From Vulgatibacter incomptus (GTDB taxonomy: Bacteria; Myxococcota; Myxococcia; Myxococcales; Vulgatibacteraceae), in contig NZ_CP012332.1 in assembly GCF_001263175.1 (NCBI RefSeq), positions 304,001 through 368,000 on the forward strand: a stretch of DNA of 64,000 bases, given 5' to 3'. Below are positions 1-15,444 of this stretch, one piece after another; the first letter of the stretch is position 1, and the number at the start of each line of letters is the position of its first letter. The notes under the pieces were generated by a model. That model saw nothing but the letters and a program-made list of their open reading frames with translations, searched no databases and had not been told where the DNA came from. Position numbers and translations under genes: made by a program.

Positions 1-1216
1 GCGGCCACGCCTTGTAGTCCGCGTAGAGGCTCGTGATGTCGTCGTTGAAGATGTACTCGACGTACTGACCGCTGAGCCCTGCGCCGAGGAAGGAGTTCTG
101 CTTGATGCTCTCGGCGATGTTCCAGTCCTCCCGTTCCCGCCACAGGGTCGAACGGTCCACGTTCGAATCCAGCATCGTGTGGATCTTCGCGATCGGCGTG
201 AAGATGCCGGAGGCCTCGGCGTTCCTCCAGCCGACGGCGAGATAGGCAACGATGAGCGGAGACAGAATGAGCGCCGTCTTCACGATCCGTGATTTCCAGG
301 GTCGCCAGCTCGTTCCCAGGAAGATCACGCCGATCGCCATGGCGAGCATGGCCCAGACCAGCCTTCGGCTGTTCAGCAGCATGCCCCACAACGGCAAGGG
401 CAGGAGGAGGAGGGCTCTCGTCACGCTGCGTTTGGTCCGCTCCACCATCAGCGGGATCAGCAGGATCATCACCGCCATCGCGAAGGTGACGGAGTCGCCG
501 TGGTTGGTCGCGTACTCCAGCCTGCCGCCGGTGAGGGCTGGCGCGACCACCAGCTGGATCCAGACCGCCATGAGCGCCTTGATCTGGGCAGCCAACACCA
601 CCACGACCGCCAGCGGGCGAAAGTCCTCCGGCCTCCGGAACGCGGTCTGGAAGAAGACGAAGAACATCGGGACCTGCAGGAGATAGCGGATCTTCCACAG
701 CGCCAGGCCGTGGCCCTTCATGAACCCCATCGCGACCGCGTAGGCGCATCCCGCCAGGAAGACGAGGATGCCGTCCCGCATGACGCTCGCGGTCCGGACG
801 GACTCGCCCCCGTCGATGTCCGACGAGGTCGCGTGGCGCCACGCCGCGAGGATCATCAGGAGGGCGACGATCGCCTCGAAGCCCGAGAACGGGACGTGGG
901 CGAGTCGCGAGAATCCGTCGTGCAGCAGATCCCCGACGAAGATGAACGGCGACGACCAGAGGCCGCCCGCGTCGCTCGGGATGTCGATCGCGATGAGGAG
1001 CAGGACCAGCGTCGTCGCCGACCAGCGCAGCGGGATGCGGGTGATGACGTAGACGAGCGCGACGACCAGGGTGGGCGCGATCGCCGCGATCGGGTCTCCG
1101 CCTGACGCGACGACGCCACCCACGGTGGCCAGGGTCGTCACGACGGCGACGACCACCGGCATCCAACTCAGGATCGCCCCACCCGGCTCGAGCCGTGCCT
1201 CCCGTGCGATCCTCAT
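1..1216 (-). CDS. O-antigen ligase/polymerase-like membrane protein (partial)
   Basis: The protein starts at the ATG at 1216 and runs off the left edge, so about 405 residues are visible and the C-terminus is missing. The translation begins MRIAREARLEPGG and shows at least eight hydrophobic segments (for example VVVAVVTTLATVGGVVA and LVVALVYVI). After these comes a long hydrophilic stretch with the motif STLWREREDWNIAESI, followed by NSFLGAGL. That arrangement (many TM segments, then a large periplasmic loop with R-x-x-x-W and G-x-G) is typical of the Wzy_C/O-antigen ligase family. It probably polymerises or ligates undecaprenyl-linked repeat units in the inner membrane. It lies one base after the stop of the preceding small membrane gene, so the two are translationally coupled. 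Family identification is by topology and motif only; Wzy polymerase versus WaaL ligase cannot be decided. Confidence 0.8.
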   Translation of the reverse strand, partial: MRIAREARLEPGGAILSWMPVVVAVVTTLATVGGVVASGGDPIAAIAPTLVVALVYVITRIPLRWSATTLVLLLIAIDIPSDAGGLWSSPFIFVGDLLHDGFSRLAHVPFSGFEAIVALLMILAAWRHATSSDIDGGESVRTASVMRDGILVFLAGCAYAVAMGFMKGHGLALWKIRYLLQVPMFFVFFQTAFRRPEDFRPLAVVVVLAAQIKALMAVWIQLVVAPALTGGRLEYATNHGDSVTFAMAVMILLIPLMVERTKRSVTRALLLLPLPLWGMLLNSRRLVWAMLAMAIGVIFLGTSWRPWKSRIVKTALILSPLIVAYLAVGWRNAEASGIFTPIAKIHTMLDSNVDRSTLWREREDWNIAESIKQNSFLGAGLSGQYVEYIFNDDITSLYADYKAWP

Positions 1217-1435: not shown

Positions 1436-3295
1436 TCACTTCCCCATGAGGAGCTGATCGAAACGCTCGCGAGCCGGGAGGATCGCCAGCGGAGCGCCGC
1501 TCTTTTCGGGGCTCACCCAGGGCCAGGGATTCTCGCCGAAGAAGGAGGGCTTCCGGTCGAGGTACAGGGAGGTCGGGAGCTCACGCCGCTCGATCCCCTC
1601 GTCCCAGACGACGCCGTTCGTGAAGAAGTCGAAGTTCCCGTGGCGGAGGGTCGCCGCGACTACCTTCGCGTCCTGCCCCTCCTTACCTGCGTCGTGCTCC
1701 ACTCCGATCGCCCAGATCGGGACCGGATCCCAGTTCCAGGGCGGACTGCCTTCGTAGACGAAGCCCGACTGGGGAGCCGCCTTCATGTCGGGAGTGCCGA
1801 TCACGTTGCCGAGGAAGCTGAAGCCCGTGTGCCATTCGGGCACGTGGATGAACTTCCGCATCACCTCGTCGCGGAGCTGGAGCGGCTGGGCCGAGCGCCG
1901 CCTTCCCGAGACGTGGTTCCGGAAGAAGGTGACGTCGATCGCGTTGCCCCAGTAGCCGTCGCCGCCGATGTGCCAGCTATCGTTCCCCTCGAAGAGCTCG
2001 TGGTGCGAGGTCGCGTAGTGCGACGCGTTCATCCCGATCTCGGGGATCGTCGGGTAGCCGGCGCCCCAGCCGTCCTCGAAGTAGTTGTAGGCGATCACGT
2101 TTCCGCCGCCGGCGGCGCGCATCACCATCACCTTGTTGAAGTTCCAGGAGATGTTGTTCTCGACGAGGTTGTCGGCGGCGTACTCGCTGACGTCGAGGCC
2201 GTAGCCCGCGCCGCCGGGATTGGGATCGACGGTGCTGTGTACGAAGGAGTCGCGCAGCACGCAGCGGAAGGTGCTCATGAAGGCCACGCTGCTGCCCGAG
2301 CTCCGATCGGACTCGATGTTCTTGGCCCACGAGTACGAGGCGGCCGTGAAGATCACGTTCCCCTGCTCTCCGCCGGAGACGTAGAGATCCTCGACGCCCG
2401 ACCACTTCTTCGTGGGAACGACGGGGCCATCCTGCTCTCCGCCAGAGAAGCGGACGACCTGCGCGCGGTTGGACTTGAAGTAGGGCAGGCGCAGCGGGGT
2501 GCTCAGCTCGAGGGTGTTGCCCTGGATGCCGACGATCTCGACCACCTGTCCGGTCGGGCGGTTCTGCCGGCTGAACCAGCCTCGGGAATCGTCGTCCGGG
2601 TGGGCCTGATTCACGGGATTCCACCAGGATCCGACCCGATCCCGATCCTCCAGCTGATCGATGAAGACGAGCTCCCCGACCTGGTAGCCGGGATCGCGAG
2701 CGACCTGAATCCGCTTGGCGCCGTGGGCCGTGTCGACCGCGAGGTCCACCGGCGTGGTGTGCTTCACCCAGAGGTGTCCGAGGCGCACCACGGGCATCCA
2801 CGTTCCCTGCGGTTTCACGAGGCGGGTCGCCTCGGGGCCTCGAGGTCCCTGCCCCCGGAGCGTGACGTAGCTCGGGACGATCAGGCCTTCCCCTCGGATC
2901 GAGTATTCGCCGGCGCGCAGGTACACGACCTTGCGGCTCCTCTCGCTGGCCTGCTCGCCGGCGGCGTCGAGGGCGGCCTGGATCGCGTCCGACGCGTCGG
3001 TGGCGCCATTGGCGAGGGCCGGGTCCACCGAGAAGCCGCCGTAGGGATCGTCGGGAGGAACGTAAACGCTCGCGGGCCTCTCGCGGTCGGAGTCGGCGGG
3101 AATCCCGCCCACGGCGTTGAGGCCCGGCTCCCAGCGGGTGAGGCGCTCCGGCGGAAGCAGTCCGCTCCGCTCGATTCGGCTCCGCCAGTCTCCGACGGAA
3201 GGTTCTCCGCTCGAGCCATTCGGATTGCTGCACGCGATGGTCAGGGCGCAGCAAACGATCGAGAGCGCGAGACCAGTCAGAAACCGACGGGACAT
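1436..3295 (-). CDS. right-handed beta-helix (pectate-lyase-like) lipoprotein, copy 1
   Basis: 619 residues from the ATG at 3295, chosen because GGAGG sits about 6 bases upstream and because the start opens directly onto a lipoprotein signal (MSRRFLTGLALSIVCCALTIAC). The mature part has the N-terminal signature of Pectate_lyase_3-type proteins: LNAVGGIP, then DASDAIQAALDAAGE and the first strands of a parallel beta-helix (VTLRGQGPRG), followed by many N-rich turns such as NLVENNISWNFNK. Such proteins bind, cleave or epimerise acidic polysaccharides in the periplasm or outer membrane. It is a close paralogue of the gene at 4947-6887, with long identical blocks in the last 450 residues. The setting in a Wzx/Wzy locus suggests a depolymerase or trimming enzyme for the locus product. 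The catalytic residues and substrate are unknown. Confidence 0.75.
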   Translation of the reverse strand: MSRRFLTGLALSIVCCALTIACSNPNGSSGEPSVGDWRSRIERSGLLPPERLTRWEPGLNAVGGIPADSDRERPASVYVPPDDPYGGFSVDPALANGATDASDAIQAALDAAGEQASERSRKVVYLRAGEYSIRGEGLIVPSYVTLRGQGPRGPEATRLVKPQGTWMPVVRLGHLWVKHTTPVDLAVDTAHGAKRIQVARDPGYQVGELVFIDQLEDRDRVGSWWNPVNQAHPDDDSRGWFSRQNRPTGQVVEIVGIQGNTLELSTPLRLPYFKSNRAQVVRFSGGEQDGPVVPTKKWSGVEDLYVSGGEQGNVIFTAASYSWAKNIESDRSSGSSVAFMSTFRCVLRDSFVHSTVDPNPGGAGYGLDVSEYAADNLVENNISWNFNKVMVMRAAGGGNVIAYNYFEDGWGAGYPTIPEIGMNASHYATSHHELFEGNDSWHIGGDGYWGNAIDVTFFRNHVSGRRRSAQPLQLRDEVMRKFIHVPEWHTGFSFLGNVIGTPDMKAAPQSGFVYEGSPPWNWDPVPIWAIGVEHDAGKEGQDAKVVAATLRHGNFDFFTNGVVWDEGIERRELPTSLYLDRKPSFFGENPWPWVSPEKSGAPLAILPARERFDQLLMGK

Positions 3296-3421
3296 CCAGA
3301 CCTCCAGTCCATGGGTGGGAAGGACGGGAGGACTACCGCAGCGATGGGGATGGAAAAAGATCCGGCGGGTGGTCATGGGCTCGCTCGGTTCGAGGCGAAC
3401 GGATGGAACGAAAGACTTCCT

Positions 3422-4939
3422 TCAGAGGCGGTTGGTTCGGTTCAGCGCGTTGCGAAGGATCTCCATGTCCGCTCGCCCGAGCAGCCGGCAGGCGATCGCC
3501 GCGGCAGCGAACGACAGGAGAAAGACGGGGATCCGGACGATCGGAGTGGAAACCGGGAGGGCGAGGACGACGGCCGTGGCCGCCCCGGCGGAGAAGAGCG
3601 CCCGCAGGAGATCCGCCAGCGACCTCCTCGAAAGGATGCCGCGGGGGGCGAGCGAGATCGACGCGGCGAGGAGGACGGTCTCGGCGAGGAGCGACGCGGC
3701 GAGGAGGCCGATGGCGGCGCTCCCCCAGCGCTGCTCCGTGAGCGGGATCACGTGCCAGGCGAGCAAGGCGAACGCCGCCATGATCACGACTCGAATCGCG
3801 GCGATCGGCGTGGCGCGTCCCTGGATGATCAGCACGGACGCGAAGAGCAGGTTGAGGAATACGAGGAAGAGCCAGGGCGACATGATCTGCAGGATCGTCA
3901 CCGCGGGTCCGTAGCCCTCCTTCCCGTAGATCACGCCGATGGCGACGTCCGCGAAGAGGGCCGTCCCGCTGGCGACCAGGATCCCCAGGATCAGCACGGG
4001 GCGCAGCGCGTTCGCCACCTCCTCGCGCATGGCCGCCGGATCGCCCAGCGCCCTCGAGAGCCTCGGGTAGGACGCGGTGATCAGGATGGAGGCGGGCATG
4101 ATCAGCGTGTTGGTGATGGTCCGGGCGGCGCCGTAGAAGCCCAGGACGACTGCCGGACCGAGGGCCGAGAGCAGGAGGGTCTCGATGTAGATCTGGGCCT
4201 GGGCGAGCACCGCCATCCCGAGGACCGGCGTGCCGTGGCTCATGAGGTGCCGGACCGCCTGGGCTTCGATCCGTAGGCGGCCGAAGGCGAGCTCGCGCGA
4301 CTTGGCGATCGCGTAGCCAAGGGTGATCACAGCTGCGATGCCAAGTGAGACGATCACGGCCAGCAGGTGTCCGCCGAGGGCGAAGGCGGCGAGGACCATC
4401 CCGACGTGCAGCACCTTGTTGAGGACGGTGGCGCGTGCGTCGAGGTCCATGCGCTCGCGGCCACGAAAGACGAGGCCGAAGGTCTGGAACAGCGAGTTCG
4501 GCGTGAAGGCGACGATCGTGAGCGCCATCAGGAGCTGGGTGCGGAGGTCGTAGCCGAGGAGGCGGACGACGAGGGTCCCGACGATCGTCCCCGGGACGGC
4601 GAGGGCCACCCGGATCGCGAGAGCGCTCCCCAGGAAGCGGGCGGTGGAATCGGGGCGCCTGGCGACGTCGCGGACCAGGATCGATCCCTGGCCCCACTCC
4701 ATGAAGACGTTGACGAAGTAGGTCGACGTCAGGAGAAAGAAATACAGGCCGAAGTCGGTGGCACCGAGGGTTCTCCCGAGCTTCGCGTTCAGGAGGATCG
4801 AGAGCAGGGTCGTGGCGACCTGGCCCGAAAGGAGGTGGAAGGCGCTGCGCGCCACGCTGCCGTTCGCCGCCGCTCCGGTGGACGGCGCGACTGGCGCGGG
4901 TGCGACGGCGACGAGTTCTTCTGGGGAGGCGTCGGGCAT
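3422..4939 (-). CDS. polysaccharide flippase (Wzx/RfbX-like, MATE/MVF superfamily)
   Basis: 505 residues with a hydrophilic, Ala/Pro-rich N-terminus (about 30 residues) followed by 12-14 predicted membrane segments. The start of the membrane domain, SAFHLLSGQVATTLLSILL then GRTLGATDFGLYFF, matches the first two helices of Polysacc_synt (RfbX/Wzx) proteins. It is expected to flip undecaprenyl-diphosphate-linked repeat units across the inner membrane. It lies 7 bases downstream of the second beta-helix lipoprotein gene and 126 bases upstream of the first, all on the same strand, so the three are probably co-transcribed. An alternative family member would be a peptidoglycan-type MurJ, but the locus makes Wzx much more likely. 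Confidence 0.85.
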   Translation of the reverse strand: MPDASPEELVAVAPAPVAPSTGAAANGSVARSAFHLLSGQVATTLLSILLNAKLGRTLGATDFGLYFFLLTSTYFVNVFMEWGQGSILVRDVARRPDSTARFLGSALAIRVALAVPGTIVGTLVVRLLGYDLRTQLLMALTIVAFTPNSLFQTFGLVFRGRERMDLDARATVLNKVLHVGMVLAAFALGGHLLAVIVSLGIAAVITLGYAIAKSRELAFGRLRIEAQAVRHLMSHGTPVLGMAVLAQAQIYIETLLLSALGPAVVLGFYGAARTITNTLIMPASILITASYPRLSRALGDPAAMREEVANALRPVLILGILVASGTALFADVAIGVIYGKEGYGPAVTILQIMSPWLFLVFLNLLFASVLIIQGRATPIAAIRVVIMAAFALLAWHVIPLTEQRWGSAAIGLLAASLLAETVLLAASISLAPRGILSRRSLADLLRALFSAGAATAVVLALPVSTPIVRIPVFLLSFAAAAIACRLLGRADMEILRNALNRTNRL

Positions 4940-4946
4940 GGGCGGC

Positions 4947-6887
4947 TTATCGAGACATGAGCTGGTCGAAGCGCTCGTGCGCCGGAAGGATCGACACCGG
5001 AGCGTCGGCCTTCTCGGGGACGACCCAGGGCCAGGGCTTCTCCCCGAAGAACGATGGCTTCGCGTCGAGGTAGAGGGAGGGCGGGAGGTCCCGTCGAGCG
5101 ATCGCGGGATCCCAGCTCACCTTCTTCGAGACGAAGTCGAAGTTGCCGTGGCGGAGGGTGGTCGCGACCACCTTCGCGTCCTGTCCCTCCTTGCCGGCGT
5201 CGTGCTCCACCCCGATCGCCCAGATCGGGACCGGGTTCCAGTTCCAGGGCGGCTTGCCCTCGTAGACGAATCCCGACTGGGGAGCCGCCTTCATGTCGGA
5301 AGTGCCGATCACGTTGCCGAGGAAGCTGAAGTTCGTGTGCCACTCGGGCACGTGGATGAACTTCCGCATCACCTCATCCCGGAGCTTGAGCGGCTGGAAG
5401 GAGCGCCGCCTCCCCGTGACGTGGTTCCGGAAGAAGGTGATGTCGACCGCGTTGCCCCAATAGCCGTCGCCGCCGATGTGCCAGCTCTCGTTCCCTTCGA
5501 AGAGCTCGTGGTGCGAGGTCGCGTAGTGGGATGCGTTCAGCCCGATCTCGGGGATCGTGGGGTAGCCGGCTCCCCAGCCGTCCTCGAGGTAGTTGTAGGC
5601 GACCACGTTTCCGCCGCCGGCGGCGCGCATCACGATCACCTTGTTGAAGTTCCAGGAGATGTTGTTCTCGACGAGGTTGTCGGCGGAGTAGGTGCTGAGG
5701 TCGAGGCCGTAGCCCGCGCCGCCGGGGTTGGGATCGACGGTGCTGTGCACGAAGGAGTCGCGCAGCACGCAGCGGAAGGTGCTGAGGAAGGCCACGCTGC
5801 TCCCGGAGCTCCGATCGGACTCGAGGTTCCTGGCCCAGGAGTACGAGGTCCCGGTGAAGATCACGTTCCCCTGCTCTCCACCGGAGACGTAGAGGTCCTC
5901 GACCCCCGACCACTTCTTCGTGGGGACGGCAGGACCGTTCTCCTCGCCTCCGGAGAAGCGGACGACCTGCGCCCGATCGGAGGTGAAGTAGGGCAGGCGC
6001 AGCGGGGTGCTCAGCTCGAGGGTGTTGCCGCGGACGCCGACGATCTCGACCACCTGCCCGGTGGGGCGGTTCTGCCGGCTGAACCAGCCTCGCGAAGGGT
6101 CGCTCGCCGTCTTCTGCCGTAGCGGGTTCCACCAGGAGCCGACGCGCGCCGTGTCGACGAGCTGGTCGATGAAGACCAGCTCGCCCACCTCGTATCCCGG
6201 GTTCTTCACCACCTGGATCCGGGTCGTTCCGTGGGGCGCATCCTCAGCGAGGTCGATCGGAGCGGTGTGCTTGATCCAGAGGTGGCCGAGGCGCACCACG
6301 GGCATCTGGCTCCCCTTCACCTTCACCACGCGGGTGGCGTTGTCGCCGCGGGGCCCCTGTCCGCGAAGCGTGACGAAGCTCGGGACGATCAGGCCTTCGC
6401 CTCGAATCGAGTACTCGCCGGCGTGCAGGAAGACGACCTTGCGTCCCTTCTCGCTGGCCTGCTCGCCGGCAGCGTCGAGGGCGGCCTGGATCGCGCGTGA
6501 GGCGTCGGATTTTCCGTTGGCGAGCACCGGATCCACCGAGTACCCGCGGAAGGGATCGCCCTTGGGCAGATAGATCGTTGCAGGGCGGGCCGAGTCCGTG
6601 TCCGACGGGATCCCGCCGACGGCGTTGAGGCCCGGGAGCCAGAGGGTCTGCCGGTCCGGCGGCAGGAGCCCTGCGGCCTTCGACTGGATCGCAGCGCCGT
6701 TCGCCTGGGTGGCGGGGGCGCTCTGCGCCTCATCCGCTGCCGAGGCGAGGGCGCGACGCCTCTCGCTTTCGCGCGACGCCGCGCCATCGGTCTGCGCGGC
6801 TCCGTCCTGGTTGCGGTTGCTGCACGAAGCGCCGACCGAGAACCAGGCCAGCGCCAGCGCGAGCGCCATGTTGCGCATGCGAAACAT
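4947..6887 (-). CDS. right-handed beta-helix (pectate-lyase-like) lipoprotein, copy 2
   Basis: 646 residues; the ATG at 6887 has GGAGG 8 bases upstream. The signal region MFRMRNMALALALAWFSVGASC ends in a lipoprotein-type cysteine. An Ala/Gln-rich linker of about 60 residues precedes the conserved domain that starts at LNAVGGIPSDTDSARP and continues DASRAIQAALDAAGE. Compared with copy 1 the mature domain is nearly colinear: both share GWFSRQNRPTGQVVEIVG, PTKKWSGVEDLYVSGGEQGN, HVPEWHT and the terminal GENPWPW/GEKPWPW. The main difference is a longer linker here. The gene lies 31 bases after the chain-length gene stop and 7 bases before the flippase start. It was probably created by duplication around the flippase; function as for copy 1. 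Confidence 0.75.
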   Translation of the reverse strand: MFRMRNMALALALAWFSVGASCSNRNQDGAAQTDGAASRESERRRALASAADEAQSAPATQANGAAIQSKAAGLLPPDRQTLWLPGLNAVGGIPSDTDSARPATIYLPKGDPFRGYSVDPVLANGKSDASRAIQAALDAAGEQASEKGRKVVFLHAGEYSIRGEGLIVPSFVTLRGQGPRGDNATRVVKVKGSQMPVVRLGHLWIKHTAPIDLAEDAPHGTTRIQVVKNPGYEVGELVFIDQLVDTARVGSWWNPLRQKTASDPSRGWFSRQNRPTGQVVEIVGVRGNTLELSTPLRLPYFTSDRAQVVRFSGGEENGPAVPTKKWSGVEDLYVSGGEQGNVIFTGTSYSWARNLESDRSSGSSVAFLSTFRCVLRDSFVHSTVDPNPGGAGYGLDLSTYSADNLVENNISWNFNKVIVMRAAGGGNVVAYNYLEDGWGAGYPTIPEIGLNASHYATSHHELFEGNESWHIGGDGYWGNAVDITFFRNHVTGRRRSFQPLKLRDEVMRKFIHVPEWHTNFSFLGNVIGTSDMKAAPQSGFVYEGKPPWNWNPVPIWAIGVEHDAGKEGQDAKVVATTLRHGNFDFVSKKVSWDPAIARRDLPPSLYLDAKPSFFGEKPWPWVVPEKADAPVSILPAHERFDQLMSR

Positions 6888-6918: not shown

Positions 6919-8385
6919 CTACGGCAACCGCTTCGTCTCTCCGAGCACGGGCAGCCCGAGCTGATGCTCGACCTGCCAGCGCTCGAGGGCCTTCCCTCCG
7001 CGGAGATCGGCTGCGACCGCGGCGAGGTGCGCGAGCAGCACGCCGCCGAGGAGTCCGCTCACGAGGAAGAGCATCGCGTAGGGCTTGATGGGCTTCTTGG
7101 GGAGCCGGGGCGGCGTGACCACCGCGTACCGGAGCTTGAACGCGGCCTCGGCCGTCTCCATCTGGAGGCGGGACGAGGCGATCCGGGCCGAGATCTCGCC
7201 CAGCCGCGAATTGAGGTTCCGCAGTCGCTCTCTGTCCGCCTCCTCGCGCGGGCTCTCCTCGAAGAGCGCCTGCGCCGGTTCCTGCCGGGCAGGCAGCGCC
7301 TGAGAGCTGGTGCCGGCGCCGGTGGCAGGGCTGGCGCCGGCGCTGGTGGCGCTGCCGCCGCGTGACCGGATCTCGTCCTCGAGCCTGCGGCGCTCCTCGC
7401 GCAGCGACGCCACCTGCGACGACGGCTGCTGCACGATCTCCAGCATCCGCTTGGTGGCTCCGATCGCGGGATGATCCGGCGCGTAGATGCTCTGCTTCTG
7501 CAGGAGCTCCGCCTGGAGCTCGATCAAGCGCTGCTGCCTGGCGGTCTCGAGGTCGGTGGCGGCGCGCTGGTTCGCCGCAAGCAAGGTCTCCAGCCGGGAG
7601 ACGTCCGGATCCTGGTTCGGCCGACGGACCAGGCGCGGCGCGGCGGCGGGGGCCGGGGCGCCATGACGCTTCTCGCCGGCCTCGGCCTTCGCCCGCTCCT
7701 CCATCGCAACGATCCGCTGATCGATCTCCTCCTCGACGCGCGCCCTGTGGTCTTCGAGGATCGTGATCGACTCGGCGACCGTCTTGATCTCGGTGGAGTG
7801 CCTCATCGCCATGAAGCTCTCGCCCGCCGCGTTCACGACGTCGTAGGCCATCTGCTTGTCCCACCACCGGAACGTGATCGAGATGGTCCCCTCCGTGTCG
7901 ATGTTGACGCCCAGGCGCTCGTCGAGGGCGTCGACGAGGCTCTCCCTCACCTCGTCGACGGTCCGCTCCCTCCCGTTGAGATAGTCGAAGAAGCGGTGGA
8001 CCATCCGGATGGCGAGGGGACGCGCCGCCAGGTAGCGCTCAGCGAAGTTCACCTGCTTCGCGAGCGCCTCGAGGTTGTCGCGCCGCACGAGGATCTCGCG
8101 CGCCGCACGGGTCGGCGCGTCGCGCTCGTGGTCGCGCTGCTCGAAGAGCGCGCCGGTCAGCGGAGAGCCGGCGAGGATTGTCGTCTTCACCTCGTACCGT
8201 TGGGGAAACAACATCAAGCCCCCTACGGCAGCCGAAAAGACAACCAGGAACGTGCCCACGGCGAGGAGCGGATGCCGGAGCGGCGCGCGGAGGGTGAAGA
8301 GGATTGCGTGCGCCACGAGTGCCAGGTCGAAGAGATCGGCATCTCCGGACGTCGCCCGACGGTTGCTCTGTAGAGGTTCTCTCAC
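6919..8385 (-). CDS. Wzz/GNVR-type polysaccharide chain-length determinant (PCP)
   Basis: 488 residues. A cytoplasmic N-terminus is followed by a first TM near residues 41-61 (LLAVGTFLVVFSAAVGGLMLF) and a beta-rich Wzz head (QRYEVKTTILAG). A long periplasmic coiled coil follows (EEIDQRIVAMEERAKAEAG, then QQRLIELQAELLQKQSIYAP with the GNVR-family DHPAI signature). The second TM, preceded by the proline-rich PPRLPKKPIKP, lies near residues 440-465. This is the normal architecture of polysaccharide co-polymerases that set chain length with Wzy. No Walker-type tyrosine-kinase domain is fused, so any BY-kinase partner must lie elsewhere. It is the first gene of the minus-strand operon and diverges from the carrier-protein operon across 231 bases that should hold both promoters. 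Confidence 0.88.
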   Translation of the reverse strand: MREPLQSNRRATSGDADLFDLALVAHAILFTLRAPLRHPLLAVGTFLVVFSAAVGGLMLFPQRYEVKTTILAGSPLTGALFEQRDHERDAPTRAAREILVRRDNLEALAKQVNFAERYLAARPLAIRMVHRFFDYLNGRERTVDEVRESLVDALDERLGVNIDTEGTISITFRWWDKQMAYDVVNAAGESFMAMRHSTEIKTVAESITILEDHRARVEEEIDQRIVAMEERAKAEAGEKRHGAPAPAAAPRLVRRPNQDPDVSRLETLLAANQRAATDLETARQQRLIELQAELLQKQSIYAPDHPAIGATKRMLEIVQQPSSQVASLREERRRLEDEIRSRGGSATSAGASPATGAGTSSQALPARQEPAQALFEESPREEADRERLRNLNSRLGEISARIASSRLQMETAEAAFKLRYAVVTPPRLPKKPIKPYAMLFLVSGLLGGVLLAHLAAVAADLRGGKALERWQVEHQLGLPVLGETKRLP

Positions 8386-8616: not shown

Positions 8617-8859
8617 ATGAACGTGTCTTCGAACATCCGCTCTTTCATATCGGAGACGTTCTTCGTCGACGACTTCGCCGACGAGGACTCCTTCCTCCAG
8701 ACCGGGATCATCGACAGCACCGGGATGATGGAGCTCGTCGCGTTCCTGGAGCAGTCGTTCGAGATCAAGATCACGGACGCCGAGCTGATCCCGGACAACC
8801 TCGACTCCCTCGCGAACCTCTGCCGGTTCGTGGAACGCAAGCGCTCCGAGGCGGCGTGA
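8617..8859 (+). CDS. acyl/peptidyl carrier protein
   Basis: 80 residues, ATG at 8617 with GAGGTGAT as ribosome site. The motif GIIDSTGMMELVAFLE holds the serine (Ser34) that would carry 4'-phosphopantetheine, in the D-S-x-x-x-x-E context of DltC/PCP-like carriers. The rest is predicted helical and acidic, as usual for the family. It is the first gene of a tight plus-strand operon (6 bases to the amidotransferase). A stand-alone carrier next to an adenylating ligase suggests that an acyl or aminoacyl group is activated, held as a thioester and then transferred or amidated. No phosphopantetheinyl transferase is in the window. Confidence 0.85.
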   Translation: MNVSSNIRSFISETFFVDDFADEDSFLQTGIIDSTGMMELVAFLEQSFEIKITDAELIPDNLDSLANLCRFVERKRSEAA

Positions 8860-8865
8860 CCTCCC

Positions 8866-10842
8866 ATGTGCGGCATCGCGGGCTTCGCCCTTCCGATCGC
8901 TCCGAGCCCTGACGAGCGCGCCGCATTCGCGGCGAGGCTGCGTCGCATGGTGGCGTCCCTGCGGCACCGCGGTCCGGACGCCCTGAACGGTCTTGTGCTC
9001 CCCGGGATCGCCCTCGGGCATGCCCGGCTGTCGATCGTCGATCCCGCCGGCGGGCATCAGCCCATGCGCGACGCGGGCACCGGCGTGACCCTGGTTTTCA
9101 ACGGCGAGATCTTCAACCACCCCGAGCTCCGCGAGGCGCTGGCGCCGGGGTACCGGTTCCGGACAGCCTCCGACACGGAGGTGCTCCTTGCCGCGTTCCT
9201 GGAACACGGCATCGACTGCGTGGACGAGCTCAATGGGCAGTTCGCCTTCGCCATCCACGATCCCCGGGACGGGAGCCTCTGGCTCGGCCGTGACCGCTTC
9301 GGGAAGCTCCCGCTCTTCTACGTCCACGACCGCGATTGCTTTGCGTTCGCCTCGGAGGCCAAGGCCCTCTTCGCAGGAGACGTGGTCCGTCCGCGGCTCG
9401 ACGCGCGCGCGCTCTTCGAGACGCTTCACCTCTGGGGTCCGTCGGAGGCACGCTCGGCGTTCGACGGCGTACGATCGCTCCCGCCGGGCTGCGTCGCTCG
9501 CGTGCGCGGCGGCGAGCTCACGATCCGGCGGTATTGGGAGCTCGACCTGGCCGACGAGCGGATCGACCACGGCCTCACCCTCGATCGCGCGGCAGACGAG
9601 GTGGAGGAGCTCCTCGAGGACGCCGTGCGGCTGCGCCTGCGCGCCGACGTGCCGGTGGCGGCGTACCTCTCGGGCGGCCTGGACTCCAGCCTGCTCTGTG
9701 CGATCGCCCAGGATCAGCTCGGCGGGACGCTCCAGACCTTCTCGGTGGCCTTCGCCCACGAGCGCTACGACGAGCGGGCGTTCCAGGCTGGAGTCGCGGC
9801 AGCGCTCGAGACCGAGCACCACTCGATCGCGGTCGAGGCGCCCGACATCGGCGCGCTGCTCCCGCAGGTGGTGGAGCACGCCGAGGCCACCCTCCTGCGC
9901 ACCGCGCCCGCGCCGCTCCTGAAGCTGTCGGGGCTGGTGCGGGATCACGGGACGAAGGTGGTGCTCACCGGCGAGGGCGCCGACGAGGTCTTCCTGGGCT
10001 ACGATCTCTTCAAGGAGACCCGGATCCGGCAGTTCTGGGCGAGGAGGCCAGAGTCGAGCGTCCGCCCGCTTCTCTTCGGGCGCCTCTACCCCTACCTGGA
10101 CGTGTCGCGGCAGTCGCCGCAGCTCCTGCGCCAGTTCTTCGGGATCGGGCTGGACGAGCCGGGCGCCCTCGACTTCTCACACCGGGTTCGGTGGACGAAC
10201 AGCGGGCGAATCGCGCGCTTCCTCTCGCCCGCCTTCCGGGAGCACCTCGAGGGATGGGATCCGGTGGCCGAGCTCCTCGGCTCGCTCCCCGCGCGGATCC
10301 GGGAGTGGAGGCCCCTCGCCAGGGCGCAGTTCCTGGAGATCCGCACGCTGCTCTCCCAGTACCTCCTCTCCTCTCAAGGGGATCGGATGCTGATGGCGAG
10401 CTCGGTGGAGGGGAGGTTCCCCTTCCTCGATCACCGCCTGGCCGAGCTCTCTGCGAGGCTCCCCGACTCCTTCAAGCTCGGGGGCCTGAAGGAGAAGCTC
10501 GTCCTGCGGCGCATCGCCCGCGGACGCGTGCCGGCGCAGGTGACCGCCAGGACCAAGTTCCCCTACCGCGCGCCGATCGCCGAAGCGCTAACGGGCCCGA
10601 GGGCGCCGACGTGGGCCCGCGAGCTCCTCGGCCGCGACGCGGTCGATTCGCTTGGAATCTTCGACGGAAGCAAGGTGGAGAGGTTTCTCGCGAGGCTCGC
10701 GGCGCGCGCGCAGGCGCCGAGCGACGCGGACGACATGGTGCTCGCCGCCGTGGCGTCGACGCAGCTCCTGGCGCATCGATTCCTGGGTGAACGCGAGATC
10801 CCTCGGGCGCAGGCAGACTCCGTGAAGGTGTGTTTCGCATGA
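8866..10842 (+). CDS. asparagine synthase-like glutamine amidotransferase
   Basis: 658 residues. The N-terminus MCGIAGF supplies the Cys2 nucleophile of class II glutaminases, with the LRHRGPDA and FNGEIFNH motifs following. The synthetase domain carries the ATP pyrophosphatase loop SGGLDSS at 269-275, then GEGADEVFLGYD and SSVEGRFPFLDHRLAE. All catalytic parts appear intact. The enzyme would adenylate a carboxylate and transfer ammonia from glutamine. In exopolysaccharide loci (for example exosortase-A-associated ones) homologues of this AsnB-like group are linked to sugar or acyl amidation rather than asparagine supply. The stop overlaps the next start (ATGA), so it is coupled to the acyl ligase; the true substrate is unknown. 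Confidence 0.85.
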   Translation: MCGIAGFALPIAPSPDERAAFAARLRRMVASLRHRGPDALNGLVLPGIALGHARLSIVDPAGGHQPMRDAGTGVTLVFNGEIFNHPELREALAPGYRFRTASDTEVLLAAFLEHGIDCVDELNGQFAFAIHDPRDGSLWLGRDRFGKLPLFYVHDRDCFAFASEAKALFAGDVVRPRLDARALFETLHLWGPSEARSAFDGVRSLPPGCVARVRGGELTIRRYWELDLADERIDHGLTLDRAADEVEELLEDAVRLRLRADVPVAAYLSGGLDSSLLCAIAQDQLGGTLQTFSVAFAHERYDERAFQAGVAAALETEHHSIAVEAPDIGALLPQVVEHAEATLLRTAPAPLLKLSGLVRDHGTKVVLTGEGADEVFLGYDLFKETRIRQFWARRPESSVRPLLFGRLYPYLDVSRQSPQLLRQFFGIGLDEPGALDFSHRVRWTNSGRIARFLSPAFREHLEGWDPVAELLGSLPARIREWRPLARAQFLEIRTLLSQYLLSSQGDRMLMASSVEGRFPFLDHRLAELSARLPDSFKLGGLKEKLVLRRIARGRVPAQVTARTKFPYRAPIAEALTGPRAPTWARELLGRDAVDSLGIFDGSKVERFLARLAARAQAPSDADDMVLAAVASTQLLAHRFLGEREIPRAQADSVKVCFA

Positions 10843-12452
10843 GCACTGCCAGTGCCTTCGTCTTCGACTGGGTCTTCGAGCACGCCCGCAGGTCGCCGGA
10901 CGCGCCGGCGGTGGGCACGCCATCGGGTTGGACGTCCTACCGCGAGCTCGCCGGTGCGGTGCGGGGGCTCGCGAGCCGGCTCGAGGAGGGGGGCGTACTC
11001 CCCGGAGCCTTCGTGACGCTCGCGCTTCCACCGGGCCCGGCTGCGGTGGCCTCGGCGACTGCGATCCAGGCGCTGGGCGCATGTGCCGTGGAGCTCAACC
11101 GCCAGCTCGACGCTCGGACGATCGAGGAGGTCCTCGCTCAGACCGGCGCGCGCCACGCCGTCGTCCATCTCCGCGATGTGGAGGTCTGGGCCCAGCTCGC
11201 CCGCGCGCATGGCTTCTCGCGGCTCTTCGTCGTCGCTCCTGCCGCGCCCTCACCCCGGCTCCAGGCGCTCCTGCAGGGGATCGACTGGACCTGGGTGGAC
11301 GAGCAGACGCCCGGCGGAGGCGATTCTGCGTGGGACGCTCCGGTCCGTGAGGCGGAGGCGCCGGCTCTCCTGGTCTACACCTCCGGAAGCACGGGGGCGC
11401 CGCGCGGGGTGGTCCAGACCCACTCGAACGTCCACGCGAACACCGAGGCGATCGGCTCGTATCTCGGCCTCACGAGCGCGGACCGGGCCCTCTCGATCCT
11501 GCCGCTGTTCTACTGCTTCGGTCGGAGCATCCTCCAGACCCACCTCTTCGCCGGCGGCTCGTTCTTCTTCGACCACCGCTTCGTCTATCCGAAGGTGGTG
11601 ATGGAGGCCGTGGCCGAGCAGCGGTGCAGCGGCTTCTACGGAGTTCCCCTCACCTTCGAGCTGATCCGGCGGCACGTGGACCTCCGCTCGATCGCCTTGG
11701 ATTCGCTGCGCTACGTCGCCCAGGCGGGCGGCGCGATGAGCCCGGACACGATCCGCTGGGCGCGCGAGGTGTTCGCTCCTGCGCCGCTCTTCGTGATGTA
11801 CGGCCAGACCGAGGCGACGGCGCGGCTCTCCTACCTCCCTCCCGATCGCGCGGCGGACAAGGCCGGCTCGATCGGGCGCGGCCTGGACAACGTCGAGCTG
11901 CGGGTGGTGGACGCCACGGGACGGGAGCTCGCGCCTCGCGCGGTCGGGGAGCTCGTGGCGCGCGGACCCAGCATCACGCCGGGCTACTTCCGCGCGCCTG
12001 CCGAGACGGCGGAGATCCTCCGCGACGGCTGGCTCTGGACCGGCGACCTGGGCTGGCAGGACGAGGAGGGCTTCGTCTTTCTCGTGGGCCGCGCGAAGGA
12101 CATGCTCAAGCTGGCAGGGCACCGGGTGAGCGCCGCCGAGCTCGAGCACGTCCTGTCGGAGCATCCGGACGTCCGCGAAGCGGCGGTGGTCGGCGTCCCC
12201 GACGCGGCCGGCCAGGAGGCCGCCGTTGCGTTCGTGGTCGCCGCAGGCGACGCGTCGCCCGACGCCGGCGAGCTCCGGCGCTTCTGCAGGCAGCGGCTTC
12301 CGGCGTTCAAGGTACCCCGCGAGATCCGTTTCGTTCGCGAGCTGCCGCGGACCGCGTCGGGAAAGATCGCGAAGGCAGCTCTCAGGGAGGGACTCGACGA
12401 TGCGATTCTCGAAGGACGTGTTGAAGCTGGATCTCGAGCGGAAGGCGGCTGA
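10839..12452 (+). CDS. AMP-forming acyl-CoA/acyl-carrier ligase (ANL family)
   Basis: 537 residues from the ATG at 10839, which overlaps the preceding stop as ATGA. The ANL superfamily motifs are complete: P-loop YTSGSTGAPRG near 180-190, MYGQTEA, the hinge WTGDLG, and the C-terminal catalytic lysine in RTASGKIAKAAL. A short N-terminal domain is usual for stand-alone members. It should adenylate a carboxylic acid and load it on CoA or on the carrier protein encoded two genes upstream. Its 3' end overlaps the NAD-synthase-like gene by 53 bases, an unusually long overlap. It resembles the acyl-CoA ligases of exosortase-A loci, but no exosortase gene is visible here. Confidence 0.85.
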   Translation: MSTASAFVFDWVFEHARRSPDAPAVGTPSGWTSYRELAGAVRGLASRLEEGGVLPGAFVTLALPPGPAAVASATAIQALGACAVELNRQLDARTIEEVLAQTGARHAVVHLRDVEVWAQLARAHGFSRLFVVAPAAPSPRLQALLQGIDWTWVDEQTPGGGDSAWDAPVREAEAPALLVYTSGSTGAPRGVVQTHSNVHANTEAIGSYLGLTSADRALSILPLFYCFGRSILQTHLFAGGSFFFDHRFVYPKVVMEAVAEQRCSGFYGVPLTFELIRRHVDLRSIALDSLRYVAQAGGAMSPDTIRWAREVFAPAPLFVMYGQTEATARLSYLPPDRAADKAGSIGRGLDNVELRVVDATGRELAPRAVGELVARGPSITPGYFRAPAETAEILRDGWLWTGDLGWQDEEGFVFLVGRAKDMLKLAGHRVSAAELEHVLSEHPDVREAAVVGVPDAAGQEAAVAFVVAAGDASPDAGELRRFCRQRLPAFKVPREIRFVRELPRTASGKIAKAALREGLDDAILEGRVEAGSRAEGG

Positions 12453-13449
12453 GCTCGCCGGAGCGCTCGAGGAAGCGGTGCTCCGGAAGCTCCGTCGTCG
12501 CGGCGTGGTCGTGGCGATCTCGGGAGGGATCGACTCGGCCTGCGTCGCCGCCCTCGCCGTTCACGCCCTCGGCCCGAAGCGGGTCTTCGGCTTGCTCCTG
12601 CCCGAGCGGGACTCGTCTCCGGAGAGCACCTCGTACGGCAGGGCGCTATGCGAGCGCCTCGGGATCGCTTTCGAATTGCACGACATCGCTCCCATGCTGG
12701 AGGCCGCCGGCTGCTACGCGCGCCGCGACGCCGCGGTGCGATCCGTGTTTCCGGAGTTCACGCCGGACATGCCGTGGAAGCTGGTCCTGGGGCCCAGCAG
12801 CCTCAACGTCTTCTACGTGGTGGTGCGGACGCCGGACGGCGGCGAGCGGAGCGTGCGGCTGACGCCGTCTGCGTACCTGGAGATCGTCGCGTCCACGAAC
12901 TTCAAGCAGCGCACGCGTAAGATGATGGAGTACTTCCACGCGGACCGGCTGGTGTACGCGGTGGCCGGGACGCCCAACCGCCTCGAGTACGATCAGGGCT
13001 TCTTCGTGAAGCTGGGCGACGGCGCTGCCGACGTGAAGCCGATCGCCGGGCTCTACAAGACCCAGGTCTACGAGCTGGCGCGGCACCTCGGGGTCATCCC
13101 CGAGATCCTGCACCGGGAGCCGACTACGGATACGTACTCGCTGGAGCAGTCCCAGGAGGACTTCTACTTCTCCGTTCATCACTCGCAGCTCGACCTGATC
13201 CTCTGGGCCAAGAACCACGGCGTCCCGGCCGAAGACGTCGCGCAGGAGCTCGCGCTCCCGACGAATCAGGTCGAGAGCGTCTTCGCGGACATCGACCAGA
13301 AGCGCCGCACGACGGCCTACCTGCACGCGCCGCCGATCCTCCTGGAAGCGGTCCGGGAGCTCGAGTCGTTCGCGCTTCGGCCCGCGGGCCGCCCGCCGGC
13401 CGAGGTGCAGAGCGAAGCGGCCGCGTCTTCGCTGTCGGTCGTTTCCTAG
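12400..13449 (+). CDS. NAD synthase-like ATP pyrophosphatase (no glutaminase domain)
   Basis: 349 residues; the ATG at 12400 has GGGAGG just upstream. The P-loop SGGIDSA lies at residues 41-47, followed by the NadE-type LLPERDSSPES and the segment GTPNRLEYDQGFFVKLGDG then KTQVYELARHLG. These are hallmarks of the NadE catalytic domain. The N-terminal nitrilase-type glutaminase found in many NadE proteins is missing, so ammonia must be free or come from the neighbouring AsnB-like protein. It has a longer region between the P-loop and GTPN motifs (with DMPWKLVLGPSSLN) than short NadE proteins. Being embedded in an acyl-activation operon, it may amidate a carrier-bound or sugar acid instead of NaAD. 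An ordinary NAD synthase role cannot be excluded. Confidence 0.75.
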   Translation: MRFSKDVLKLDLERKAAELAGALEEAVLRKLRRRGVVVAISGGIDSACVAALAVHALGPKRVFGLLLPERDSSPESTSYGRALCERLGIAFELHDIAPMLEAAGCYARRDAAVRSVFPEFTPDMPWKLVLGPSSLNVFYVVVRTPDGGERSVRLTPSAYLEIVASTNFKQRTRKMMEYFHADRLVYAVAGTPNRLEYDQGFFVKLGDGAADVKPIAGLYKTQVYELARHLGVIPEILHREPTTDTYSLEQSQEDFYFSVHHSQLDLILWAKNHGVPAEDVAQELALPTNQVESVFADIDQKRRTTAYLHAPPILLEAVRELESFALRPAGRPPAEVQSEAAASSLSVVS

Positions 13450-13559: not shown

Positions 13560-14966
13560 CTACTGCGCGCCTCGGGCGGTGATCACGGCCGGAATCGTCT
13601 TCAGGCAGATCTGCATGTCCTGCCAGAGCGACCAGTTGTCGATGTACTCGAGGTCGAGCTCCATCCAGCGGTCGAAGGAGATCCCGCTGCGACCGCTGAC
13701 CTGCCAGGTGCAGGTGAGGCCCGGCCGGACCGAGAGCCGGCGACGCTGCCACCGCTGGTACTGCTGGACCTCGGAGGGGATCGGAGGCCGCGGCCCGACG
13801 ATGCTCATCTGCCCGCGGAAGACGTTCCAGAACTGCGGCAGCTCGTCGATGGAGGTCTTCCGGATGAAGCGGCCGACCCGGGTGACGCGGGGGTCGTTCT
13901 TCATCTTGAACACCGGCCCGCTCACCTCGTTGAGGGCGCGCAGCGCCTGCAGCCGCTGCTCCGCGTCGCGGAACATGGAGCGGAACTTCACCATGGTGAA
14001 GGGTCGGCCGTTGAGCCCGACCCGCGTCTGCTTGAAGAACACCGGCCCCCGGGACTCGAGGCGGATCGCCGCCGCGACAATCAAGAAGACGGGCGTCAGC
14101 ACGATCATGGCGGCGAGGCTCACGACGATGTCGAAGAGCCGCTTGGCCGCGAGGGGCAGTATGTCCGACGGGGTGCGGATGAAGACCAGCATCGACAGGT
14201 CGGAGAGCTCGAAGAGGGACATCCGCCCCATGCCCAGGTGCAGCGGCTCGAGCGACACCACCACGGTCACGCCCTGGTCCTCGCACATCTTCACGGCCGG
14301 CTCGATCGTGTTCAGGCGCTCGCGCGGGACGGCGAAGACGATCTCGTCGAGCACCTGCTCGTCGAGGATCCGGGCGAGGTCCGAGAGGGAACCGAGGACC
14401 CTTCCGCTCGGGGACCGCACCGGTGCCTCGTCCAGCAGGATGAAGCCGGCGAGCTCGAAGCCCCACTGCGGGTGTTTCGCGAAGGTGATCGCGACCTCTT
14501 CGGCGGCGCTCCCCGTACCGACGATCGCGTACCGCCGCATGTTGTACCCGCTCCGGCGCAGGGCCCGGGCGGTCATCCTCACGACGAGCCGGCTGGAGAC
14601 GAGCAGGCCGCTGGCGATCGCGAAGTAGAGGCCGATCAGGAGACGCGGCAGGCGCGTGTCGGCGCTGAAGAGGACCGCGAGCGTCACCACGGCGACGAGC
14701 GCGAGGGCCCTCGCGATGCGCCCGAGCTCCTCGATGATGCCCCGGGTGCGGTAGGTGCCGTACACCTGGGAGATCGCGGAGGCGGTGATCCAGAGGAGCA
14801 GGACCGCGACCACGCGCACCCAGAGAATCTCGATCGGCGGCGGCCCCCAGCGCGCCATCGGAGCGTGAGCGTAAGCGAAATGTGCCGCCGGAAGTGCGAG
14901 CGTGAAGAGGATCAAATCGGCCAGGCGGACGCAAAGATCGACGAATCGAGCGTGCTGTTTGAGCAT
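13560..14966 (-). CDS. undecaprenyl-phosphate sugar phosphotransferase (priming, WcaJ/PssY-like)
   Basis: 468 residues from the ATG at 14966. About four N-terminal TM segments and a CoA-binding-like Rossmann middle domain (YAIVGTGSAAEEVA) precede a fifth hydrophobic hairpin and the bacterial sugar transferase domain. The transferase domain begins KRLFDIVVSLAAM and carries KFRSMFRDAE, KTSIDELPQFWNVF, SIVGPRPP and the C-terminal RPGLTCTWQVSGRS. This is the full polyisoprenyl-phosphate hexose-1-phosphate transferase architecture, so the enzyme should load the first sugar on undecaprenyl phosphate at the inner membrane. A run of nine G's lies 5 bases before the start. The gene converges on the carrier-protein operon and has its own 478-base upstream region. 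Confidence 0.92.
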   Translation of the reverse strand: MLKQHARFVDLCVRLADLILFTLALPAAHFAYAHAPMARWGPPPIEILWVRVVAVLLLWITASAISQVYGTYRTRGIIEELGRIARALALVAVVTLAVLFSADTRLPRLLIGLYFAIASGLLVSSRLVVRMTARALRRSGYNMRRYAIVGTGSAAEEVAITFAKHPQWGFELAGFILLDEAPVRSPSGRVLGSLSDLARILDEQVLDEIVFAVPRERLNTIEPAVKMCEDQGVTVVVSLEPLHLGMGRMSLFELSDLSMLVFIRTPSDILPLAAKRLFDIVVSLAAMIVLTPVFLIVAAAIRLESRGPVFFKQTRVGLNGRPFTMVKFRSMFRDAEQRLQALRALNEVSGPVFKMKNDPRVTRVGRFIRKTSIDELPQFWNVFRGQMSIVGPRPPIPSEVQQYQRWQRRRLSVRPGLTCTWQVSGRSGISFDRWMELDLEYIDNWSLWQDMQICLKTIPAVITARGAQ

Positions 14967-14971
14967 CGTGG

Positions 14972-14980
14972 CCCCCCCCC
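14972..14980 (-). repeat. G9 homopolymer in the ribosome-binding region of the priming transferase
   Basis: On the minus strand the sequence reads A-G9-CCACG-ATG. The G run therefore occupies the Shine-Dalgarno position, 5 bases from the start codon. If the upstream TTG in the same frame (14999) were the start, the run would be inside the coding sequence and slippage would shift the frame. Confidence 0.6.
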
Positions 14981-15444
14981 TAGGAAACCGGCGGCGCAAC
15001 CTACATCCGCAGATGTTTCCCTACAGTCCCACGAGTATGTGTCGATTTACATGCGGTCCTCAGCGGCGGTGTCTTTTTATGTGCAGAGCAGAGGCGCTCG
15101 CCTCCCTCGTGTGCACGTTTCGACCTCGAGAGCCGGTCGCTCCCCGCTCGTCTGGCCTTCGCTCGACCCGCGCGGGGCGTCTTCTCGTCCCAAATTGCGA
15201 GTCCAGCGACCGATCGCGGGCGGATCTCCGAATGGGGGATCCATGTCCGGATTCGAAATGAGAGCCAACGGATAGACCTCGTTGGCTGGCTGGACTGCGC
15301 CCATGACGACCCTCCCCGCCGCCCCTTACCCGCCGAGTGTCCAAGACGGGATTCCGAGACGGGAAAGATTTACCTATGCGCGCCGGGCCCAGACAGTGCG
15401 CGATAGGGGGGCGTCGGCGCGCGGTCCGGCGCGCACCTCGAACG
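14981..15444. other. long intergenic region, no gene recognised
   Basis: The 464 bases upstream of the priming transferase contain no frame with protein-like composition that I trust. A 75-codon minus-strand frame at 15077-15304 has a plausible beginning (MGAVQPANEVYPLALI) but degenerates to arginine/serine-rich shadow-type sequence. The part next to the G tract is locally A/T-richer (TCTTTTTATG, GTCGATTTACATG) and probably holds the promoter of the transferase. No riboswitch or RNA was recognised. Confidence 0.4.

Follow-up and report, generated by a model that had tools for sequence, protein, structure and literature searches.

A conserved carrier-protein cassette with an NAD synthase-like enzyme in an exopolysaccharide locus of Vulgatibacter incomptus

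The four-gene cassette

In Vulgatibacter incomptus (Myxococcota), a stand-alone acyl carrier protein (ACP), an AsnB-like amidotransferase, a ligase of the ANL superfamily and a NadE-like ATP-pyrophosphatase are encoded side by side within an exopolysaccharide (EPS) locus, on the stretch of 64,000 nucleotides analysed here (positions 304,001 to 368,000 of contig NZ_CP012332.1, hereafter the window, to which coordinates without prefix refer). These four genes recur together across phyla and probably constitute a conserved carrier-protein module, the amidated acyl product of which would be destined for a surface polysaccharide. The original prediction had placed them in one operon, and both their positions and their couplings were verified, namely a 6-base gap between the ACP and AsnB-like genes, an ATGA overlap between the latter and the ANL gene, and a 53-base overlap between the ANL and NadE-like genes. 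A chance operon is ruled out by the recurrence of the gene set across phyla.

8617..8859, + strand: stand-alone ACP of 80 amino acids, phosphopantetheine site Ser34 in the motif DSTG (PF00550, 26.1 bits)
8866..10842, + strand: AsnB-like glutamine-dependent amidotransferase of 658 amino acids, with a Cys2 glutaminase and an SGGLDS ATP-pyrophosphatase domain (TIGR01536, 439 bits)
10839..12452, + strand: ANL-superfamily acid:ACP ligase of 537 amino acids, of the subtype without the alpha-amino-binding Asp (PF00501, 239 bits; LFYCFG motif)
12400..13449, + strand: NadE-like ATP-pyrophosphatase of 349 amino acids, PRK00876 family, without glutaminase domain (NF002048, 457.5 bits)

The catalytic motifs of these proteins are intact. 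The ACP scores over the PF00550 cut-off of 20.8 bits and its D33-S34-T35-G36 motif is kept across 54 aligned cassette ACPs, which is consistent with its assignment to the ACP family. The AsnB-like protein, with its MCGI start, its SGGLDS motif and matches to PF00733 (291 bits), GATase_7 (140 bits) and TIGR01536 (cut-off 267), belongs to the asparagine synthetase superfamily. Among the cassette AsnBs, SGGxDS is present in 54/54 and Cys2 in 50/54; as for the four others, two are incomplete at their start and two are entries from one genome, in which the loss is genuine. In this latter protein (L013:6409-8343 / L071:6040-7974), Cys2 is replaced by Ala together with N79S, E81H and D103P while the ATP-pyrophosphatase motif is intact, so that it would need ammonia from another source. 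In the ANL protein, both subdomains of carrier ligases are present (PF00501 and PF13193, the latter at 82 bits), and K424, K509 and R329 are conserved in cassette ligases, the catalytic lysines K509 and K424 being invariant.

Co-conservation across phyla

Relatives were gathered from named genome contigs, Myxococcota, rhizobial plasmids, Gammaproteobacteria and Planctomycetota, and loci were counted when at least 6 kb were available on both sides and once duplicates had been removed (n=45, not 45 independent cases since the Corallococcus loci are close relatives). Near the NadE-like gene, an ACP gene was found in 44, an AsnB gene in 43 and an ANL gene in 39 of these untruncated loci, which come from Myxococcota, Alpha- and Gammaproteobacteria as well as Planctomycetota, and all four genes were together in 39/45. 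A Spirochaeta locus also holds all four genes but is cut by a contig end. At the genome level, the PRK00876 cut-off was exceeded in 75/195 Myxococcota, 17/369 sampled Gammaproteobacteria and 8/246 Planctomycetota, and Methanosarcina acetivorans was the sole control genome above it. The four genes are thus strongly co-conserved, and what had been taken for a combination that could not be placed proves to be a module of wide distribution, its AsnB and ANL proteins resembling families associated with the exosortase XrtA.

The order of the genes is not fixed, as AsnB-ACP-ANL-NadE was found in 16 loci, ACP-AsnB-ANL-NadE in 9, NadE-ANL-ACP-AsnB in 5 and other arrangements in fewer; such variation in order and strand points to selection that keeps the genes together, and not to inherited synteny. 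The pairwise divergences of the NadE-like and AsnB proteins are correlated (r = 0.77), and ANL is the loosest member by the same measure (r = 0.26-0.47). The core is likely to be ACP-AsnB-NadE, with an exchangeable ligase. In a locus from a Myxococcales metagenome-assembled genome (MAG; L008:3555-6316), a pair of other genes in opposite orientation lies where the ligase gene would be expected, between the AsnB and NadE-like genes.

An accessory NadE-like protein

Besides PF02540 (159 bits), the NadE-like protein matches NF002048/PRK00876 over its cut-off of 313 bits, and no glutaminase or nitrilase domain was found in it with Pfam and NCBIfam profiles. The family is named NAD(+) synthase at NCBI. 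That it could be the sole NAD synthase of the genome, which had been named, alongside a lack of co-conservation, as what would refute a role in decoration, is ruled out by a separate canonical NadE at C1:1929707-1930447 (614-codon frame, 248 bits). A separate NAD synthetase-like protein was likewise found in 20/20 other Myxococcota checked, whether cassette-bearing or not, and in 5/5 genomes reached through other loci, i.e. 25/25 others in total; its presence in every genome tested indicates that the NadE-like gene is accessory.

The closest folds to the structure model, which is weak at residues 186-210 and at the C terminus, are the NH3-dependent NAD synthetases 2e18 and 1xng, with which the protein shares the PP-loop and the residues for Mg, ATP and most of deamido-NAD, whereas identity is 27% to 2e18 and mostly under 25% to the rest in structural alignments. 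Residues S41-G42-G43-x-D45-S46, R171, T191, E196, K204, D211, K220 and T243 are conserved in 54/54 NadE-like proteins, and we take them to be equivalents of the Mg/ATP/deamido-NAD ligands of Escherichia coli NadE (after HAMAP MF_00193; R140, T160, E165, K173, D180, K189, T211); the residue opposite H260 of the E. coli enzyme is not His. PRK00876 differs from NadE by its accessory distribution and near-obligate partners, by a three-strand beta insert predicted at about 126-153 (pLDDT of the model 72), and by its own conserved residues, namely C105-Y106, K169-Q170, H180-x-D182-R183, Y197-D198-Q199 and H309, all unmatched in the canonical NadE of the same genome. A NadE fold with a shifted substrate has a precedent in the NMN synthetase of Francisella tularensis (3fiu). 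The core enzyme of the cassette is probably misnamed as an NAD synthase. The retention of deamido-NAD residues is the main unexplained fact; judging from these residues, NAD synthase activity or a substrate with a nucleotide diphosphate part would be allowed.

Ligase subtypes and the Sinorhizobium meliloti counterpart

When aligned by motif, the window ligase reads LPLFYCFG and another group of cassette ligases LPLAFDYG, the Asp of which lines up with that of the A4 motif of amino-acid-activating domains. The A4 Asp binds the alpha-amino group in such domains; since the window ligase is devoid of it, the acid activated in V. incomptus should lack an alpha-amino group. A HemK/PrmC-type methyltransferase gene is present in 9/15 Asp-type loci vs. 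0/35 others (p about 2e-6, uncorrected). Since PrmC enzymes add a methyl group to the glutamine amide nitrogen, this partnership fits an amide-bearing product, which would be amino-acid-based in the Asp-type branch. The methyltransferase of locus L095 is over the cut-off of TIGR00536 and scores 195.5 vs. 199 for TIGR03534. Two of the nine genes, in S. medicae (L076:23107-23715) and S. meliloti RMO17 (L078:24466-24864), lie about 11 kb from the cassette and share 58% identity with the copy of the Myxococcota cassette; the former adjoins GNAT and lipopolysaccharide genes.

The pSymB replicon of S. meliloti 2011 carries AsnB-ACP-ANL-NadE as a single operon (1450-1455 kb). As the only ligase-beside-ACP site found on this replicon, it should correspond to SMb20650/SMb20651, an identification made by elimination on the replicon rather than by locus tag; the ACP gene product there is not over the PF00550 threshold, hence the link to SMb20651 through ligase-ACP adjacency. 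According to the account of Ramos-Vega et al. (2009) given in PMC7232532, the SMb20650 ligase yields acylated SMb20651 ACP in E. coli, so that the loading of an acid on the carrier, as originally predicted for the window, would hold by orthology. From the same account, SMb20650 was unable to replace FadD, which disfavours a role in fatty-acid activation (PMC7232532). As late as 2017, SMb20651 was described as a carrier whose function was open (PMC5686131). The S. meliloti operon shares its four gene families and ligase-ACP partnership with the window but differs by its Asp-type ANL, its gene order and a location not within an EPS operon. In the literature searched, no mention was found of PRK00876, SMb20649 or SMb20648, and no paper combining NAD synthetase, ACP, asparagine synthase and exopolysaccharide.

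Surface-polysaccharide setting and recurrent partners

In the window, the cassette is enclosed by EPS genes, with Wzy, two pectate-lyase-like proteins, Wzx and an EpsV-like protein encoded on one side and an EpsZ-like protein on the other. Gammaproteobacterial cassettes sit in XrtA/PEP-CTERM EPS loci, where neighbours of the cassette match XrtA-system families over or near their cut-offs, those of the pepcterm ATPase, a tyrosine kinase, a polysaccharide deacetylase and FemAB (TIGR03015, TIGR03018, TIGR03006 and TIGR03019), and Planctomycetota cassettes adjoin an apparent polysaccharide deacetylase, recognised by eye. The surface-polysaccharide setting put forward for the window thus recurs elsewhere. 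The closest EPS-associated named families of ANL and AsnB are ligase_PEP_1 (TIGR03098) and the amidotransferase TIGR03108 of XrtA loci, but the window proteins are far below these equivalog cut-offs (315 bits vs. 592 and 376 vs. 816.9, respectively); the ligase of a gammaproteobacterial cassette inside an XrtA locus, at 504, is likewise under 592. The V. incomptus cassette further differs by the addition of the NadE-like protein and by the absence of an exosortase, as PF09721 had zero matches in the whole genome, which rules out an XrtA system in this bacterium. Asparagine-synthetase genes, two of them in floc-forming bacteria, are reported to be part of the conserved XrtA-type cluster (PMC9012009) and to be required for floc formation (PMC7662799).

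Two adjacent hexapeptide acyltransferases, designated LbH-A and LbH-B, adjoin the cassette or its ACP in many Myxococcota loci and in one Nevskia MAG, and hexapeptide as well as SGNH-like genes are also near gammaproteobacterial cassettes. Orthologues of LbH-B were detected in 50/195 Myxococcota genomes, 48 of which also bear the cassette, within 15 kb in 43 (Fisher p about 1e-23, relatedness ignored), the two remaining ones being fragmented assemblies. These recurrent partners, i.e. the paired hexapeptide acyltransferases and the SGNH-hydrolase-like proteins, would supply the transferase missing from the original model. In V. incomptus, the tandem LbH orthologues are at C1:2184331-2185421, beside helicase and antiporter genes and 1.9 Mb from the cassette, and an SGNH-like protein is at C1:2213733-2214518. 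The statement that no transferase or exosortase is visible holds for the neighbourhood of the cassette in the window but, as regards the transferase, not beyond it, given the transferase-pair orthologues and an acyltransferase-3 protein just left of the window. No MBOAT protein (DltB-type) was found among annotated neighbours, no genome-wide search for MBOAT having been made. Beside one cassette (L013/L071), four successive matches to SGNH-like exported proteins lie upstream of the LbH pair. Another genome (G070) carries two cassettes, L058 and L059, one with an Asp-type ligase and a PrmC-like gene, the other with a second ligase type and an LbH pair.

Proposed mechanism and alternative explanations

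The cassette is real, conserved and more general than first supposed, and probably represents carrier-based surface decoration in a new form. In the mechanism proposed, whose substrate, order of steps, NadE-like reaction and acceptor we infer, the ANL ligase would adenylate a carboxylic acid and load it on the ACP, and the AsnB-like enzyme would amidate, with ammonia from glutamine, a carboxylate left free on the loaded acid or on its precursor. The NadE-like protein, derived from an ammonia-dependent NAD synthetase, would adenylate a second carboxylate and amidate it with ammonia or another amine. The hexapeptide acyltransferases, which adopt a left-handed beta-helix, would then transfer the ACP-borne group to one of the sugars in the EPS repeat unit, either ahead of Wzx/Wzy assembly or in its course, and exported SGNH-like proteins may trim or move it; in V. 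incomptus, the orthologous transferase pair and SGNH protein would act from other genome sites. PRK00876 may be a neofunctionalised NadE, that is an ATP-dependent amide synthetase acting on a carrier- or nucleotide-bound acid, in a module building amide-bearing surface-polysaccharide substituents across many phyla (N-methyl-amide aminoacyl groups in the Asp-type branch), with many nadE annotations functionally wrong, though this wider proposal is advanced tentatively.

Among known systems, Dlt D-alanylation also relies on an ANL ligase and a stand-alone carrier to decorate a cell-surface polymer, but it is devoid of an amidation step and its transfer depends on the MBOAT protein DltB, not on hexapeptide acyltransferases. 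Amidation of an ACP-bound acid by AsnB has a precedent in glutarimide-polyketide loading modules, where an AsnB-type amidotransferase is proposed to act on the carboxylate left free on such an acid (PMC4853412). These modules similarly associate a discrete ACP with an AsnB-like amidotransferase, but they are loaded by a malonyl transacylase rather than an ANL ligase, are without a NadE-like protein and feed a polyketide synthase.

Of the original prediction, which is supported in part, the idea of decoration is favoured by the co-conservation of the genes, the accessory nature of the NadE-like protein, ligase-ACP loading by orthology, the EPS/XrtA context and the acyltransferase partners; the view of an unplaceable gene combination falls. 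Several facts weigh on the other side. NadE-like keeps nearly all ATP/deamido-NAD-binding residues of E. coli NadE, which is odd with an unrelated substrate; an LbH-B orthologue is missing from 27/75 cassette-bearing Myxococcota genomes; several loci have no nearby ligase; one AsnB (L013/L071) is without glutaminase residues; and in one Planctomycetota locus (L111:9093-10073) NadE-like is alone, no other cassette gene being detected within 9 kb on each side. In addition, the cassette stands alone, outside any EPS operon, in S. medicae (beside minCDE) and in Nitratireductor.

If the proposal is true, the NCBI name NAD(+) synthase hides a surface-polymer enzyme in Myxococcota, rhizobial megaplasmids, Gammaproteobacteria and Planctomycetota, and reconstructions of NAD metabolism built on PRK00876 are wrong. 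It would also give a function to the SMb20651 carrier and help to explain the importance of asparagine-synthetase-like genes in the XrtA clusters of floc formers. It would further indicate a polysaccharide substituent that is, to our knowledge, not yet described. The genetic tractability of S. meliloti makes a direct test feasible.

The stand-alone operons of S. medicae and Nitratireductor are also what would be expected if the product were a free small molecule, lipid or osmolyte, i.e. an amidated acyl or aminoacyl compound not bound to polysaccharide, with a secondary EPS neighbourhood. ACP and ANL pairs are known to feed lipids, such as sphingolipids (PMC9386255), and the AsnB-like protein resembles N-acetylglutaminylglutamine amidotransferase (TIGR03104, 337 bits, below the cut-off of 570). 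Such a free product is unlikely, however, as EPS or XrtA genes adjoin the V. incomptus cassette as well as many of those in Gammaproteobacteria, and as the recurrent hexapeptide acyltransferases and SGNH-like proteins are typical of glycan modification.

Somewhat more doubtful still is that one operon serves two jobs, with AsnB-like and NadE-like amidating uronic acids, in a nucleotide sugar or in the polymer, and ANL and ACP supplying an unrelated acyl group. O-antigen loci encode AsnB homologues that amidate uronic acids, and the dinucleotide-binding residues kept by NadE-like are compatible with a nucleotide-sugar acid; yet the higher frequency of the ACP than of the ANL gene (44/45 vs. 39/45) ties the carrier to AsnB and NadE and not to the ligase alone, and the PrmC-like partner tracks the ANL subtype.

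Finally, the NadE-like protein might be a genuine NH3-dependent NAD synthase, serving as a back-up or under local regulation beside a three-gene decoration module. Despite the NCBI name, the PP-loop and the full conservation of the E. coli NadE ligand equivalents, this is improbable in view of the separate NadE in every genome tested, the near-obligate ACP and AsnB partnership across phyla, the strong co-divergence with AsnB, the family-specific residues and the insert.

Neighbouring genes of the EPS locus

The other features of the locus within the window are as follows.

2..1216, - strand: Wzy-type EPS polymerase, frame reaching the window edge (NF041870, 212 bits, below the cut-off of 670; PF04932 in the flank-extended gene)
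1436..3376, - strand: pectate-lyase-like protein (rhamnogalacturonase/epimerase-type) of the EPS locus (PF12708, 31 bits)
3422..4939, - strand: Wzx-type flippase (PF01943, 84 bits)
4947..6887, - strand: second pectate-lyase-like protein, paralogue of 1436-3376 (PF12708, 26.4 bits, just under the cut-off of 27)
6919..8385, - strand: EpsV-like polysaccharide co-polymerase, divergent from the adjoining cassette (NF041864, 240 bits, below the cut-off of 800)
13560..14999, - strand: EpsZ-like polyprenyl glycosylphosphotransferase, initiating the synthesis of EPS repeat units (TIGR03025, 432 bits, cut-off 295.6; NF041877, 366 bits)

Beyond the left window edge, the locus continues with genes for Poly_export, acyltransferase-3 (the O-acyltransferase just outside), a glycosyltransferase and a second full-length AsnB-like amidotransferase (L107:12526-14856, - strand; synthetase domain at C1:297555-298718). 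The latter is the only other full-length AsnB-type protein of the genome, which is a single contig of 4.35 Mb; its location in the same EPS locus, together with the AsnB/NadE-like co-divergence, disfavours a housekeeping asparagine synthetase as the sole reason for the cassette AsnB. Within the window, the Wzx gene is flanked by the two paralogous pectate-lyase-like genes, both on the - strand.

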